64,000 nucleotides of DNA from Collinsella sp. An7 (GTDB taxonomy: Bacteria > Actinomycetota > Coriobacteriia > Coriobacteriales > Coriobacteriaceae). Shown piece by piece: positions 33,505-39,213 of the stretch. Position numbers and translations under genes: made by a program. Where the stretch lies: assembly GCF_002159335.1 (NCBI RefSeq), contig NZ_NFHP01000001.1, positions 372,001 to 436,000 on the forward strand. The letters run 5' to 3'. The notes beneath the pieces were generated by a model. It had not been told where the DNA came from and did no database searches. It worked only from the letters and a program-made list of their open reading frames with translations. How positions within the stretch are numbered: the first letter of the stretch is position 1; every line of letters starts with the position of its first letter.

Positions 33505-34251
33505 ATGGATAGCAAGGGATTGTTCACGTCAATAGCAAAGAGCTTGGCTCAAAAGGTTTTCGTAGCGATTGTGATCTGTGCCGTGGGGATTGTTTTGGCT
33601 CCCCATAACGCATTTGCATCATCAGCGACCCAGCAAGGCGATAGCGCGACTATCAATGGGTATACCGTGAAGACTTACAGTACTGCGCAAACAAATCCCA
33701 CCTGGTTTACTGCGTCAACGAATATTTGGAGTTCGAAACAGGCGTCGCCTGGAGCATTGCGAGCAAAGGCACAGCTTAGGGTTGGCATTTCTACGCCCTA
33801 TGATCTTACCGTTGCAACCGATTGGGCTTATAACAAATCGGCAAACGTTGTGGCTGGAGCTACTGCCACTCATAGATTTACAAGCAATCCCGGATGGGGC
33901 GGAATTCAGGCAACAGGCACCGGGGGAATTTATATCAGCGGGTGGCATGACTTTTATGCTGGTACGGCAACCGCGTGGATAGATAGTAGGTCGGCATCGA
34001 TTAGCGCGCTCAAAGAGCGTGCCTCGGAACGAATTGATTCCGCTACCGGTGAGATATATCTCCGTGCGATGGGCGAGTCGGGCAAGATGGGCTATGTCAA
34101 AAAAGGCGAGGAAAGCGTCACTGAGTACATGTCCCCTCAAGAGGTACTAAACTTTATAGGGGAAACTAACGGGGTGGTTCATATTAACCTCTACGACGAG
34201 GATCTCAAAACGGTCATCGATACGTATCCTGTTTCGTTCACGCTTTGCTGA
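33505..34251 (+). CDS. Secreted protein of unknown function
   Basis: 248 residues with a signal peptide: basic start, hydrophobic stretch FVAIVICAVGIVLAP, and likely cleavage after NAFA. The mature part is rich in Ser, Thr, Trp and Gly (FTASTNIWSS, NPGWGGIQATGTGGIYISGW). The C-terminal 70 residues carry GKMGYVKKGEE, SPQEVLNFI and YDEDLKTVIDTY, which match the secreted protein at 35996-36577. GAAAGGATCGATACT precedes the ATG. Low GC for this genome. Possible adhesin, bacteriocin-like or signalling protein; function unknown. Confidence 0.7.
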   Translation: MDSKGLFTSIAKSLAQKVFVAIVICAVGIVLAPHNAFASSATQQGDSATINGYTVKTYSTAQTNPTWFTASTNIWSSKQASPGALRAKAQLRVGISTPYDLTVATDWAYNKSANVVAGATATHRFTSNPGWGGIQATGTGGIYISGWHDFYAGTATAWIDSRSASISALKERASERIDSATGEIYLRAMGESGKMGYVKKGEESVTEYMSPQEVLNFIGETNGVVHINLYDEDLKTVIDTYPVSFTLC

Positions 34252-34267
34252 CGCGTTGGGGGTCGGA

Positions 34268-35674
34268 ATGAAATGTGTCGACAGGCGAATCGTCTTAGAG
34301 CTGGTTGCTGGTTTATCTTGCCTGTCCTTGGCCGGCTGTGTTTCGGATGAGATGGGCTTGCAACAGGAGACCATGGGTTCCGGCCCCGAGCAATGGGATA
34401 ACCAGGCAACGTGGGGTAATCTTGATTTGGCGTGGAGCGCCCTGCTGCTGAGGGAGCCTGGCGTCGATACGTCGGCGGACGAGGAGCCGCTCTCGGAGAT
34501 GGCGCTCGGCATCATCATCAGGACGAGCAACCTTGCAACCTGGGGCCAAAACGTGCTGGTGGGTGCGGGCGGCGCTCTGCTGATGTTCGATACTGCCATC
34601 GGCGACGTCCTCGACCGTTTTGAGCTGAGCGCTCAAGACACGAACTCTCCCATGGGCGACGTGGCGGCAGTGGCCGTAGATGGGGATACGGCCTATCTTG
34701 CGACGTCCGGTGGATACTTTGTCTCGATTGATCTTGCGAGCAAGAAGCAACTTTGGGCGCAGCTCGTCTGTCCTGCGCGGCAGACGGGCTGGCTTGCGCA
34801 GGATGTAGATGGCACATACGAGGACCTTCCGGGGGCGTGGCTCTGTCCTAACGTGGTGGTGCATGACGGCGCGCTGGTTACCGGTTTCTCGAGCTATCAG
34901 ATGGAAAACGCCTCGACGCTCGTGTGCGTTGAGGCGGCAACCGGTGCGGTCCGCTGGACTCGGCAGCTCGAGGGTAGGCTCGACACAGCCGGCGGGCTCG
35001 GTTACCCCGTGGCGGTGGAGGCGGGCATCCTGCTGCCCATGCCAGATGGCTCCGGCCTTGGTCTGCTGAGCTGGCAGGCGGGGGAGACCCTGGACCTCCT
35101 CCAGACGGGCAGCGAGATCTACATGGGCCTCACCATGAGCGAGGGAGGCGCCCTGCCGTGCTATTTCCAATCCAAGCTCGGAACGCTCTACAGGGTTGAG
35201 GTGGAGAAGGGGTCGCTCGTGGCCTCGAGTGCCCAAGACGCTTGCACGGACGCTACAAAGCGCGTCCCTTCGGGTGCGCGACCCCTTCTGGTTGGCGACC
35301 GGGTGCTGGTGAACGCTGCGACGCAGGACGAGGACGCCCCGCGGTTTGAAGGCGATTACGATCCGTCGCGCGGGGAGTGCGTGACGTTCGACGCACGTAC
35401 GCTTGAGGTGTTGGAGCGTCACGATGCTCCGGAAATCGAATCCACTCCGGTGCTCGTTGGCGACGATGCGTATTACCTCGGGCGGGCGGGGATATATCGC
35501 GCCTCGGTTGCCGACGGGGTGCTCGGTGAGCCGGAGTTGGTCTTTGACGAGGAGGGCCGCGACCGCGACGTGTGGGATCAGCAGCTACTTGCTGCAGACG
35601 ACATGTTGTATTTCGTGGGCGGCCCCTACGGCGAGCGACGCCTATTTGCGGTTGGGCGGGTGGGTGGCGCCTAG
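34268..35674 (+). CDS. Lipoprotein with PQQ-like beta-propeller repeats
   Basis: About 468 residues. The signal sequence ends in the lipobox LSLAGC, so Cys becomes lipid-modified and the protein is anchored outside the membrane. Propeller blades are suggested by GALLMFDTAIGDVLDRFEL, GGYFVSIDLASKKQLWAQL and TLVCVEAATGAVRWTRQL, each with the Gly/Trp pattern of PQQ-like repeats. ATG 34268 follows a G-rich stretch; TTG 34256 is possible. It begins 16 bases after the secreted protein and is probably cotranscribed. GC returns to the genome norm here, unlike the preceding gene. Confidence 0.75.
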   Translation: MKCVDRRIVLELVAGLSCLSLAGCVSDEMGLQQETMGSGPEQWDNQATWGNLDLAWSALLLREPGVDTSADEEPLSEMALGIIIRTSNLATWGQNVLVGAGGALLMFDTAIGDVLDRFELSAQDTNSPMGDVAAVAVDGDTAYLATSGGYFVSIDLASKKQLWAQLVCPARQTGWLAQDVDGTYEDLPGAWLCPNVVVHDGALVTGFSSYQMENASTLVCVEAATGAVRWTRQLEGRLDTAGGLGYPVAVEAGILLPMPDGSGLGLLSWQAGETLDLLQTGSEIYMGLTMSEGGALPCYFQSKLGTLYRVEVEKGSLVASSAQDACTDATKRVPSGARPLLVGDRVLVNAATQDEDAPRFEGDYDPSRGECVTFDARTLEVLERHDAPEIESTPVLVGDDAYYLGRAGIYRASVADGVLGEPELVFDEEGRDRDVWDQQLLAADDMLYFVGGPYGERRLFAVGRVGGA

Positions 35675-35995: not shown

Positions 35996-36577
35996 TTATC
36001 CTACGAGGAACGTTCCGATAACCGTGGTTCCGTCTTGTTCGTAGACGGGGATGGAGCGGGCTAAGCTCGTTCGCGCATTATCCAAAGCATCTGCGAACTG
36101 CTCCTCGGTAATGGAAAGTTCCATGAACTGGGTGTTTGTTGCCGAAAGCTGCTCTATACTATGTGTCGGATCGGGCGTTTCGCTCATGATGGCTATCATC
36201 GCTGACGCCTCTGCTGCTGTTACGTTGCTTTGCCCGGTTATGGCGTTAAGCTCTCGAGCAAGGGCATTCGATAGCTCATCGTTGCGCGTTTCCATAAGCT
36301 GTACGGCCTCTTCTGGATTAGCAGCTGGTGCTTCTGCTGCATGAAGCTCGTCACGTTTGACGTACCCCTCTTTGCCGTTTGTTGCTACCACCAGGATTAG
36401 ATTCGGTTCCTCCTCATAGTCGAACATGCTGGCGGAGCCGAACGTCATACCCTTTGAATTTACTTCACTGCGGGATGCGGCATCTGCTGGCGTTTGCGGC
36501 AGGACGAATGTTGTAAAACAAATACCGAGTGCTACGACAAATACTCCAAGAAGACACGCAAGGCTACGTTTTCTCAT
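35996..36577 (-). CDS. Secreted protein sharing a GYVK / TVIGTF domain with its neighbour
   Basis: 193 residues with signal peptide (MRKRSLACLLGVFVVALGI, cleavage near ADAA). The mature protein shows LILVVATNGKEGYVKRDEL, NPEEAVQLM, and ends SIPVYEQDGTTVIGTFLVG. These blocks recur in order in the secreted protein at 33505-34251, but here about 80 helical residues are inserted between them. ATG 36577 has AAGGGGATGACAAC upstream. It is the second gene of a leftward operon, 27 bases after the preceding stop. Function unknown. Confidence 0.7.
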   Translation of the reverse strand: MRKRSLACLLGVFVVALGICFTTFVLPQTPADAASRSEVNSKGMTFGSASMFDYEEEPNLILVVATNGKEGYVKRDELHAAEAPAANPEEAVQLMETRNDELSNALARELNAITGQSNVTAAEASAMIAIMSETPDPTHSIEQLSATNTQFMELSITEEQFADALDNARTSLARSIPVYEQDGTTVIGTFLVG

Positions 36578-36604
36578 GTTGTCATCCCCTTTTATCATGT
36601 CTCG

Positions 36605-37054
36605 CTACCTAACAGTTTGGGCAGGTGAACGGCCGCTGGAGAACGTAGTGTAGCCTGTCCCATTCCAGTATGCTCCTGCGCCCTGCGAGTACCAGCTAGT
36701 TCCGGTGGAAACTGAGTTGGCACGTGCATGGAAAAACAGCCAGTTATAGCCATTGAGCGTGCTCCAAGAGTATTGCCATCCTCCGTCGCGGTATAGGGCG
36801 CCATTGGATGTGAACAGCCGGGGGTTTGCCCCCATTTCTCCAGCCGAAGTCGTCTGAGCGCTTCTAATGGCTTGAGACGCATCCGCCATGTTGGAAGTGG
36901 TATAGATGTTTGAGTAAGCAACAAACGATTTTGATCCACTACTGGCTGTGGTGTTTGACCCGCTTGCTGATCCGGCAAACACCGGAAGCGGGCTCATTAA
37001 CAAGAGCACTACCGCAAGGGCCATACTGGCAATCCGCCGCTTTTGTAACGTCAT
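36605..37054 (-). CDS. Small secreted protein, Ser/Tyr/Trp-rich
   Basis: 149 residues with a clear signal peptide (RRIASMALAVVLLLMSPLPVFA, cleavage after VFA). The mature 120 residues are rich in Ser, Thr, Gly, Tyr and Trp (FVAYSNIYTTSN, GGWQYSWSTLNGYNWLFFH, SWYSQGAGAYWNGTGYTTF). The FxxSNIY opening resembles FTASTNIW in the protein at 33505, hinting at relatedness. GAGGAAGACCA precedes ATG 37054. It leads the operon with 35996-36577. A secreted effector or bacteriocin-like protein is possible but unproved. Confidence 0.68.
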   Translation of the reverse strand: MTLQKRRIASMALAVVLLLMSPLPVFAGSASGSNTTASSGSKSFVAYSNIYTTSNMADASQAIRSAQTTSAGEMGANPRLFTSNGALYRDGGWQYSWSTLNGYNWLFFHARANSVSTGTSWYSQGAGAYWNGTGYTTFSSGRSPAQTVR

Positions 37055-37358
37055 TGGTCTTCCTCTGTCGGCATGTGTAATAATACCGGCCGGCCCGGCC
37101 GGCAAATATATTATAAGCAGTAAGCAATATAATATGTTGTTAACAACATAATACTATTCCAATCGTCAATGTCGATCTGGATGTATGGGAAAGAGATGAA
37201 AGGTACCTACTAATCCTTGAACGGTAGCTAAATGGTAAAATGAAAAAAATATTTTATATAGGAAAAACAAAGCAAAATATATTACCACTGCTATCACATA
37301 TGCTTACGCTCTATCCTTTTACTTGTAGATGACTTACTTTGCAATAGGGGGTGTGATT
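37055..37358. promoter_or_regulatory. AT-rich divergent regulatory region with palindromes
   Basis: Contains the palindrome ATGTTGTTAACAACAT (37134-37149), an ATATTATA...TATAATAT pair (near 37107-37134), and a GC palindrome CCGGCCGGCCCGGCCGG (near 37086). It separates the secreted-protein operon from the radical SAM gene. A 30-codon ORF at 37239 has no ribosome site and is not called. Confidence 0.5.
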
Positions 37359-38588
37359 ATGCGTTTTGGAGACCATATAGTACGGTTTAACTTAGGGGGC
37401 ATTCCCGCCGTGGGTAACACTTCAACCGGCTCTATCGTTGGTCTTACGAAAGAGGGGTCGTCCCTTTGCGATGTCATGTTTACGAGGAATGTTACAGAGG
37501 CGGAAGTTCCTATCAATTGCGCTGAACTTGTTGATTATTTTAGAGAGCATGAGTTTTTTGAGGAATCAGAATTAAAGGAAGGTCATCGCGTACGTTCTGC
37601 CTACCTACACGTAAGCAACCGCTGCAATCTTTCTTGTGTGGGTTGCTACTCAAAGGACGATGCGCGCAATGTGGAGTCCGATCCATCGCTTCACCAGCTG
37701 AAGCATGCCATGGCTGTTTTGGCGGAGTTGGGTGTGGAGCAGCTTGTTATCTCCGGCGGCGAACCGTTTATGCGGTCCGATTTGCCTGATGTTGCCCGTG
37801 CGGCCAAGGACTGTGGTGTTAATAGGGTTGCGGTGCTCACCAACGGGTTGCTATGTACGCCGGAGCGTCTGACTTCACTGGTGGGCATAGTGGATATTCT
37901 TTCTATCTCGTTTGATGGTACGTCGGCAGATGCGCCTGCATATATCCGCGGCGAGCAGCGTTTTGATGCCTTGATTGGGGCGATTGTCAACGCAAAGGCA
38001 GCTGGTGTACACGTGCATATATTGCCTACGCTCCATGCCAGCAACGTTGATGATGCCTCCGCCTATGTGGCGCTGGCGGAACAACTTGGGACAACCGTTG
38101 GCTTTAGCTTGTTGAGCGGAAGTCGGGAAAACCTGGGGGATCTGTATCCCTCAGATACCTGCTTAGCTCATCTTGCGGATGTGATGTGCTCGCTTGGTCA
38201 AACGGTGGATGATGATGTCGTATTTAATGGTACACGTGGAGGCCTCAGTGCTTGTGCTGGCTGCGGAGCGGGTAAGGTGAGCGTGAGCATGGCGGCGGAC
38301 GGTTCGGTATACCCGTGTCATATGCTCCATTATCCGGAGTTTCGCCTTGGCAATGCATATGCTAACAGTGCAGACCAGATTCGCGAGGAGCTCGCCGATT
38401 TCTGCCTGCCAACGGTCGATGAGCTCGACAGTTGTAAGGATTGCGACAAACGCTACTTGTGTGGAGGTGGTTGCAGAGCAAGAGCGTTCATAAGGTACGG
38501 TAGGATGGGGAAGAAAGACCCCTACTGCACGTTCTATCAGCATTTATTATACACCGCGGTAGATGAGTTTATCAATGAGCAATACTAG
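37359..38588 (+). CDS. Radical SAM/SPASM peptide-maturase-like enzyme
   Basis: 409 residues. An N-terminal 80-residue domain (RFGDHIVRFNLGGIPAVGNT, GSIVGLTKEG) resembles the leader-peptide-binding parts of RiPP maturases. The radical SAM core has CNLSCVGC (CxxxCxxC) and VISGGEPFMRSDL. The C-terminal SPASM region holds CAGCGAG, YPCHML, then CKDCDKRYLCGGGCR and a final YC, enough Cys for two auxiliary iron-sulfur clusters. ATG 37359 has GGGGGTG six bases upstream. A 25-codon peptide gene follows 9 bases after the stop, pointing to post-translational modification of that peptide. Confidence 0.88.
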   Translation: MRFGDHIVRFNLGGIPAVGNTSTGSIVGLTKEGSSLCDVMFTRNVTEAEVPINCAELVDYFREHEFFEESELKEGHRVRSAYLHVSNRCNLSCVGCYSKDDARNVESDPSLHQLKHAMAVLAELGVEQLVISGGEPFMRSDLPDVARAAKDCGVNRVAVLTNGLLCTPERLTSLVGIVDILSISFDGTSADAPAYIRGEQRFDALIGAIVNAKAAGVHVHILPTLHASNVDDASAYVALAEQLGTTVGFSLLSGSRENLGDLYPSDTCLAHLADVMCSLGQTVDDDVVFNGTRGGLSACAGCGAGKVSVSMAADGSVYPCHMLHYPEFRLGNAYANSADQIREELADFCLPTVDELDSCKDCDKRYLCGGGCRARAFIRYGRMGKKDPYCTFYQHLLYTAVDEFINEQY

Positions 38589-38597
38589 GAGGTCACC

Positions 38598-38675
38598 ATG
38601 CTATTTGTAATCGAGCGCACTGATGAGATTTCCCCAACTTGCGTGCCTATTTGGGGCGTTCTGATCGGCTATTAG
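38598..38675 (+). CDS. 25-residue peptide, candidate substrate of the radical SAM maturase
   Basis: A tiny ORF starting MLFVIERTDE and ending CVPIWGVLIGY. AGGAGGTCACC directly precedes the ATG, one of the best ribosome sites in the region. It begins 9 bases after the maturase stop. The charged N-terminal half could be the leader. The C-terminal 11 residues contain one Cys, one Trp and a terminal Tyr, side chains that SPASM enzymes can cross-link or decarboxylate. I do not recognise it as a member of a named RiPP family. No protease or dedicated exporter is adjacent. Confidence 0.65.
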   Translation: MLFVIERTDEISPTCVPIWGVLIGY

Positions 38676-38712: not shown

Positions 38713-39213
38713 ATGGCAAACGGTCGTGCCAAGACGCGCTGGCTTACATTTGCGCTGGTGGTTTCTTGCGCAATCGCGGCAGCCGGTGTTCTTTTCAACT
38801 GCGTAACTTCAACTATGCGGACTGGCTACTTGTTGACCCATTCCACTCTATCTTGGGATGCAGGCCTTCTGCGCTTGTGCGGCGTAGATTTGGTCGGGGT
38901 GGTTATCGATTTTGTACTTCTTGGAGCATTCATAATGCTTACAGCGATAGTACTCCGCAGCAAGATTATGTTTGGCAAAACGCAAACGAAGTGTCTCGCT
39001 TGCGTGGCGGTTGCGACGCTTATGAAGGCGTTGGTTGGACTTGCTCTGCCATCAATTCAAATTCCTGAGATTGCTGGAGGATTTATCGGCCCCATCTCCA
39101 TCGCCCCAACGTTAGACCTGCGCCTGCTTTCGTTTTCGTTCATGTTCTTTGCGCTTGCGGGCATTTTTGAGTACGGTAGAATTCTTCAAGAAGACTCGGA
39201 CAGCATCCTGTAG
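38713..39213 (+). CDS. DUF2975-like membrane protein
   Basis: About 166 residues with four hydrophobic helices. The ending ALAGIFEYGRILQEDSDSIL matches the DUF2975 family. ATG 38713 is preceded by GAGAGG at 11 bases; TTG 38695 is an alternative. It is followed 21 bases later by a small XRE regulator; DUF2975 proteins and such regulators are commonly paired. It may be in the same transcript as the maturase and peptide, 37 bases upstream. Function unknown. Confidence 0.75.
   Translation: MANGRAKTRWLTFALVVSCAIAAAGVLFNCVTSTMRTGYLLTHSTLSWDAGLLRLCGVDLVGVVIDFVLLGAFIMLTAIVLRSKIMFGKTQTKCLACVAVATLMKALVGLALPSIQIPEIAGGFIGPISIAPTLDLRLLSFSFMFFALAGIFEYGRILQEDSDSIL

Follow-up and report, generated by a model that had tools for sequence, protein, structure and literature searches.

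A conserved radical SAM/SPASM–peptide–DUF2975–HTH_26 cassette in Coriobacteriia: an apparently undescribed family of predicted radical SAM-modified peptides

The described system closest to the one reported here is CteB/CteA, the SCIFF (six Cys in forty-five residues) ranthipeptide pair, in which an enzyme with an N-terminal recognition element (RRE) for ribosomally synthesized and post-translationally modified peptides (RiPPs), a radical S-adenosylmethionine (SAM) barrel and a full SPASM domain is paired with a Cys-containing precursor; the title of its structure entry (PDB 5WGG/5WHY) concerns thioether formation. SCIFF-derived products have been reported, as quoted in a later article, in clostridial quorum sensing (Chen 2020, via PMC8326336). 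Streptococcal radical SAM RiPPs (RaS-RiPPs) such as streptide and NxxcA likewise have short precursors adjoining an RRE-SPASM enzyme; some are under quorum-sensing control, and NxxcA contains a single thioether (PMC8326336). Here we describe a locus whose enzyme has the domain layout of CteB, with an RRE-like N-terminal domain, and whose predicted precursor also contains Cys; it lies in a 64,000-nucleotide stretch of Collinsella sp. An7 DNA (contig NZ_NFHP01000001.1, positions 372,001 to 436,000; hereafter the window). Its radical SAM/SPASM enzyme, a 25-residue peptide, a DUF2975-like membrane protein and a helix-turn-helix (HTH) regulator form one conserved unit. We read this unit as a RaS-RiPP cassette of a family outside the models searched; giving most weight to substrate and module, and including a thioether product and a signalling role, we put the probability of this reading at about 0.5.

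The maturase gene runs from an ATG at 37359 through 409 codons to a TAG stop codon at 38586–38588, and the peptide open reading frame (ORF) begins 9 bases later (ATG 38598, stop ending at 38675). The initial annotation, made from the window alone, had described this arrangement of radical SAM/SPASM gene, short gap, AGGAGG site and 25-codon ORF correctly, and the enzyme passes the Pfam cut-offs for both Radical_SAM (72.1 bits versus 29.5, 8e-20) and SPASM (PF13186; 26.4 bits versus 21.5, 9e-6). A Shine–Dalgarno sequence comparable to that of the window peptide lies 5′ of nearly all homologous peptides. The window peptide has the MLF.IE start and the C-x2-I-x-G-[IV]-x-[IV]-G end conserved in its relatives, and in its own genome the profile of its class matches at 38598–38675 only (8.5e-9). 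The enzyme is also single in this genome, the other match being a distant radical SAM protein (27% identity over 116 residues).

With 75 further homologous copies from Coriobacteriia, the comparison covered 76 loci with flanking DNA, and a peptide ORF of the same design is present in 70 of them. The annotation had proposed asking whether a short ORF with a Cys...Trp...GY ending always follows the enzyme. That strict motif had to be abandoned, and an ORF of the same design does follow in most cases: a MLF/MQF...Cys ORF with a Shine–Dalgarno sequence starts between −40 and +60 of the enzyme stop codon in 62 of 74 loci; for the other long ORFs of this DNA the count is 5 of 1002. The control comes from the same loci and the pattern was picked after the peptides had been seen, but the contrast, 84% versus 0.5%, is insensitive to such details, and the frequency of a small ORF after the enzyme far exceeds chance. 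In seven loci the peptide instead precedes the enzyme by about 1 kb, the gene order being peptide, DUF2975, HTH, enzyme, and in one (L108) it lies 138 bases downstream. The six loci without a peptide comprise L048, where a contig end cuts an evident peptide; L075 and L082, which are contig-end loci; L098 and L099, whose genomes carry the peptide elsewhere; and L107, where it is frameshifted. At this last locus (G392:C21), a broken frame 3 bases past the enzyme stop codon reads MLFSVEHEAPSSV-stop, with CVIIGGILIGF in another frame, and represents either a pseudogene of recent origin or an error of assembly, the genome being 85% complete.

The peptides are mostly 21–38 residues long with one to three Cys (one in 24, two in 37 and more in 9 of the 70). 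An M-x-F start and a C-x2-[IVLF]-x?-G motif occur in 70/70. Across 65 aligned peptides there is no variation at M1, F3, one Cys and one Gly, and an Ile or Val beside the Gly is almost as conserved as the Cys; the last residue varies freely, as do the positions that separate the conserved Cys from the Gly. Two main classes emerge: a one-Cys class, to which the window peptide belongs (MLFxIE...CxxIxGIxIGx), and a two-Cys class (MLFYSE...CxxIGxxGxxCxxxGx), in which the C-x2-[IV]-G unit appears about twice. Ten independent close pairs, pooled, give a nonsynonymous divergence (pN) of 0.13 and a synonymous divergence (pS) of 0.54, a ratio of 0.24; the peptides are under purifying selection. The annotation's emphasis on Trp and a C-terminal Tyr did not survive the comparison. 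Trp occurs in 4/70 peptides and a C-terminal Tyr in 7/70, Cys and Gly being conserved instead, which makes chemistry of the streptide (Lys-Trp) or mycofactocin (Val-Tyr) type unlikely.

Peptide and enzyme also keep company across genomes. The enzyme is carried by 16 of 67 genomes in the window's own family and by 68 of 398 in the class Coriobacteriia, every one from the same order; a sample of 396 genomes from the phylum gave matches confined to members of that order. A two-Cys profile matches 35 of 329 genomes searched from the order, 34 of which are listed enzyme carriers, and the remaining match is weak, partial and contains an internal stop codon. The chance of such an overlap is ~1e-25 if 70 of 329 genomes are taken as carriers (an upper bound) and relatedness is ignored. 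Over 67 genomes, a one-Cys profile gives 12 peptide matches of 1.4e-6 or better, which come from 11 genomes, each an enzyme carrier; its weaker matches are fragments inside frames of 137–143 residues. In the enzyme tree, all 23 rows with a one-Cys peptide fall within one clade of 28 rows (support 99/98), of which the other five comprise two with more Cys and three that lack an intact peptide beside the enzyme. Conserved adjacency, selection on the peptide, its exclusive co-occurrence with the enzyme and an enzyme clade that matches the Cys class together indicate that the window peptide is almost certainly the substrate of the adjoining enzyme, as the annotation had proposed. The same evidence bears on the idea that the small ORF is a translated leader, an attenuator or coupling ORF controlling the DUF2975 gene. 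Its location just 5′ of that gene, even where the enzyme is missing, would suit a leader, but an invariant Cys and Gly, the low pN/pS ratio, the restriction to enzyme-carrying genomes and the lack of such an ORF before other DUF2975 genes make this explanation extremely improbable.

The enzyme itself has the features of a peptide maturase. In an alignment of 53 homologues (32–57% identity to the window copy) 36 positions are invariant, including all seven SPASM cysteines (C302, C320, C359, C362, C368, C372 and C390), and the SPASM region is expected to hold two auxiliary clusters. An AlphaFold2 (AF2) model based on these 53 homologues has a predicted local distance difference test score (pLDDT) of 93.3 and a predicted template modelling score (pTM) of 0.90. 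Three strands (residues 7–12, 15–20 and 26–28) and two helices (31–42 and 52–63), spanning residues 7–63, precede the barrel in the model and form a predicted RRE-like domain that is presumed to bind the peptide; no Pfam family, PqqD included, matches this N-terminal part. CteB ranks first by sequence profile (1.1e-31), by Foldseek and by VIA-align 2, the last with Z 28.5 and a root-mean-square deviation of 7.0 over 371 residues (model residues 6–406). This deviation is high, which fits a shifted RRE, a domain reported to vary from one structure to another (PMC8326336). The next fold matches are ChlB, anSME, SkfB, SuiB and PqqE, and EpeE and TigE are also among the matches. The modelled fold supports peptide modification, without by itself fixing the reaction.

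With CteB nearest by profile and fold, a full SPASM domain and Cys as the sole conserved reactive residue of the peptides, we predict from sequence and model that the product is somewhat more probably a Cys-thioether RiPP than not. The enzyme could instead epimerise a residue, form a C–C cross-link or rearrange a branched residue, with the Cys serving in binding or dimerisation. In favour of this, the Ile or Val by the Gly is nearly as conserved as the Cys, and EpeE, SuiB and TigE appear among the fold matches; CteB nonetheless leads in the sequence comparison as well as in that of folds, the Cys is invariant in the 65 aligned peptides and the number of Cys tracks the enzyme clade, so that we regard a different modification as unlikely.

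The annotation had also entertained a cofactor role, with the peptide as precursor of a redox cofactor or intracellular metabolite in the manner of pyrroloquinoline quinone (PQQ) or mycofactocin. The precursor is short, no exporter is present, and the RRE-SPASM enzyme is weakly similar to the MftC and PqqE models. These models miss their cut-offs by far, however (MftC, TIGR03962, 90.2 bits versus 265; PqqE, TIGR02109, 84.6 bits versus 381), and no other tailoring enzyme is conserved in the loci. Because the peptides vary widely, with free variation in the Cys–Gly spacer and the last residue, and several different ones occur per genome, a cofactor role is very unlikely. NCBIfam yields 76 weak family matches to the enzyme, and among the 25 matches listed none is near its cut-off, the best of them being CbpB (TIGR04163; 101.3 bits versus an equivalog cut-off of 375).

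The annotation had noticed a DUF2975/XRE pair following in the same direction. The pair is indeed there, but it is no mere follower: it accompanies the peptide constantly, also at sites that lack the enzyme. Profiles made from the window proteins find a DUF2975-like homologue and an HTH homologue in 68/76 loci each (69 when weaker members of the profile search are counted). The window regulator scores 71.8 bits with HTH_26 (PF13443; gathering score 22). The DUF2975-like label comes from relatives, in that the window membrane protein has no match to PF11188 (gathering score 27 bits), whereas 17 of 34 aligned relatives at the same position do, and the cassette members at L117 and L119 pass 27 bits. 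For this gene the start at ATG 38713 is preferred from comparison with L042, the frame being open from TTG 38695; start sites of neighbouring genes were set by eye.

Nine peptides examined with their flanks lie remote from any enzyme, with a DUF2975-like gene directly behind in 9/9, an HTH gene in 7/9 and an enzyme gene in 0/9. A tenth, at L095, lies 4.8 kb from the enzyme with DUF2975 and HTH genes and no second enzyme around. Genome G183 has four peptides and one enzyme, and in G195 the HTH gene is kept beside the enzyme and the peptide and DUF2975 gene are elsewhere. No such peptide was found with the DUF2975 genes of family members that lack the enzyme. Since all nine remote peptides have a DUF2975-like gene and lack an enzyme, one maturase appears to serve several peptide–membrane protein–regulator modules, and since peptide and DUF2975 gene stand together at enzyme-less sites, any maturation of those peptides requires that the enzyme be able to work in trans. 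The most economical interpretation makes peptide and DUF2975 protein functional partners, with maturation of the peptides in trans by the enzyme.

Only the enzyme, the DUF2975-like gene and the HTH gene recur at a fixed place; in line with the annotation, no exporter or protease recurs among the neighbouring genes in the 76 loci, and ABC-like genes occur at scattered positions in 17. At L113 (G275:C12) the enzyme gene is followed by two peptides and then by genes for an ABC ATPase, a putative permease and an Rce1-like CAAX protease, a layout resembling that of skf.

Several observations concern the distribution of the enzyme. No relatives were found in phages, and viral contigs gave no enzyme match above 33%. 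A Streptococcus salivarius plasmid (L190; NZ_CP018188.1, 122813–123643) bears a truncated gene for a SPASM protein that is 34% like the enzyme of the window, preceded by an IS1595-type transposase and lnu(C) and followed by ABC transporter, LytTR and GHKL genes; a further relative, at 25%, occurs in Dehalococcoidia. Genome G044, with an estimated contamination of 6%, has two complete cassettes (L045 and L052) whose enzymes resemble each other only distantly (one is 55% and the other 44% like the window enzyme).

In the mechanism that we propose, the enzyme would cleave SAM, as expected from its family, and the RRE-like domain would bind the start of the peptide (MLFxIE or MLFYSE). The 5′-deoxyadenosyl radical would take a hydrogen atom from a residue close to the conserved Cys, within or beside C-x2-[IV]-(x)-G, and the Cys sulfur would bond to that residue to form a small thioether ring, a single one in the one-Cys class of the window and probably a pair in the two-Cys class. 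The product, short and hydrophobic and perhaps first trimmed by housekeeping peptidases, would then reach the membrane. There, by analogy only, the cognate DUF2975-like protein could recognise it and relay its state to the HTH_26 regulator, which would control the operon. Such an arrangement suggests a modified peptide that acts as a signal or as a toxin with its own sensor. By analogy with known systems, we tentatively propose, at slightly unfavourable odds, a signalling role in which a specific peptide–receptor–regulator channel also sets self-tolerance. Still more tentative is the wider picture of a signal class of gut Coriobacteriia, with one maturase per genome, several distinct peptides each with its own DUF2975 receptor and HTH_26 regulator, and the widespread DUF2975–HTH pair as the peptide-sensing device.

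A competing explanation for the same module takes the product for a membrane-active bacteriocin or a cannibalism toxin, with the DUF2975-like protein as immunity protein and the HTH protein as an autorepressor freed when immunity is occupied. Models for this exist in SdpI/SdpR and in skf, an operon that includes a CAAX-type protease and an ABC transporter. The segment from the Cys to the end is hydrophobic (mean Kyte–Doolittle 1.44), a membrane protein accompanies the peptide, the peptides diversify (four different ones in one genome), and at L113 two peptides are followed by an ABC transporter and an Rce1-like protease. Most loci by far, however, lack a linked exporter, so that unlinked export would be needed in every producer, and DUF2975 genes are widespread without any such peptide. 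A toxin is a real possibility, though somewhat less probable than not.

Several points weigh against our reading of the locus as a cassette for a thioether-containing signal: (i) The case for the thioether is built on Cys conservation and fold, and C–C bonds too are made by enzymes that share this fold (SuiB, PqqE). (ii) In a tethered AF2 model of enzyme and peptide, made by reading the L108 enzyme stop codon as Gln, with ten such fused rows in the alignment, the peptide is undocked and disordered (pLDDT about 30–38). (iii) There is no linked exporter or protease to carry a signal out of the cell; the peptide may either act in the membrane of its maker or leave by a general route. (iv) The divergent L113, with two peptides and no DUF2975 or HTH gene, fits a bacteriocin better. 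(v) No operator of the HTH protein was identified, and no motif was found that is common to the modules of one genome.

One candidate operator was rejected. The palindrome GTAAY-N6-RTTAC, of the T-N11-A pattern, lies 130–157 bases before the enzyme start in just 10 loci (L079, L085, L086, L089, L090, L093, L095, L096, L102 and L105), with only 3 occurrences in the remaining 887 kb. In 8 of these loci a divergent LysR-like gene, present in 18 loci overall, stands beside it. At L223 and L227, GGTTTAAAGCTATAAACC, an imperfect palindrome, is found upstream of the remote peptide and is followed by a further ATAAACC copy; it is possibly the operator of that module's own regulator.

Elsewhere in the window, three secreted-looking proteins without a clear Pfam family (33505–34251, + strand; 35996–36598 and 36605–37105, both − strand) neighbour a PQQ-type beta-propeller protein (34256–35674), and two of the three share a 'GYVK+' and 'TVIxT' pattern by eye. 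The features of the cassette are collected in Table 1.

Table 1. Predicted features of the cassette in the window, with coordinates counted from the first base of the window.
Feature	Position	Strand	Basis
Predicted radical SAM/SPASM peptide maturase, 409 aa	37359..38588	+	Pfam, homologue alignment, AF2 model, CteB fold
N-terminal RRE-like domain, residues 1–66	37359..37556	+	AF2 secondary structure; CteB alignment from residue 6
CxxxCxxC radical SAM cluster motif (C89, C93, C96)	37623..37646	+	Invariant, 53 homologues
SPASM region, canonical seven Cys (C302–C390; Cx17C...Cx2Cx5Cx3Cx17C)	38262..38528	+	PF13186
AGGAGG ribosome-binding site of peptide, overlapping enzyme stop codon	38587..38592	+	Sequence
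Predicted precursor peptide MLFVIERTDEISPTCVPIWGVLIGY, 25 aa, one-Cys class	38598..38675	+	Alignments, pN/pS, profile match
DUF2975-like membrane protein, four apparent transmembrane stretches	38713..39213	+	Homologues, PF11188 in relatives
Cro/C1-type HTH_26 regulator, 91 aa	39235..39510	+	PF13443

Taken together, the cassette appears to be an undescribed RaS-RiPP family, as the annotation had supposed. No NCBIfam family covers it, and the open-access literature on Coriobacteriia, DUF2975 and RiPPs yielded no description, although a prior listing is possible. To our knowledge, a layout of one maturase with several peptide–DUF2975–HTH modules has not been described so far, and we know of no function for DUF2975 proteins. 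Gut Coriobacteriia thereby gain a defined RaS-RiPP family with some 80 precursor sequences for heterologous expression, and DUF2975 proteins, which occur in several phyla among the control genomes, gain a first testable partner. The one-enzyme, many-modules layout makes both the tolerance of the enzyme and the specificity of peptide–receptor pairs directly testable.

Among known systems, we file this one as a RaS-RiPP, with a predicted modification that is ranthipeptide- or sactipeptide-like in its working; like the precursors of those classes, its peptides carry an invariant Cys, the predicted donor. We do not assign it to SCIFF, CbpB, mycofactocin or PQQ because each failed on a tested feature. 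Compared with CteB/CteA, the enzyme is 19% identical, DUF2975 and HTH_26 genes accompany the locus, a single enzyme per genome goes with several remote peptides, and the window peptide has one Cys rather than six. CbpB is similarly a peptide-modifying radical SAM/SPASM enzyme, but the score of our enzyme is far below its equivalog level. Mycofactocin (MftA/MftC) and PQQ (PqqA/PqqE) share the very short precursor, the SPASM enzyme and the absence of an exporter, but their C-terminal Val-Tyr or Glu...Tyr is not conserved here and no further cofactor genes are present. The streptococcal RaS-RiPPs have Rgg/SHP regulators, in contrast to the DUF2975/HTH_26 pair, and their Trp is not conserved in our peptides. 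Finally, Bacillus subtilis offers two analogies: skf combines a radical SAM-modified peptide with ABC transporter and CAAX-type protease genes, as at L113, and SdpC–SdpI–SdpR is a trio of peptide, membrane protein and repressor. The peptide design differs from both, and the comparison of DUF2975 proteins with SdpI is one of layout.
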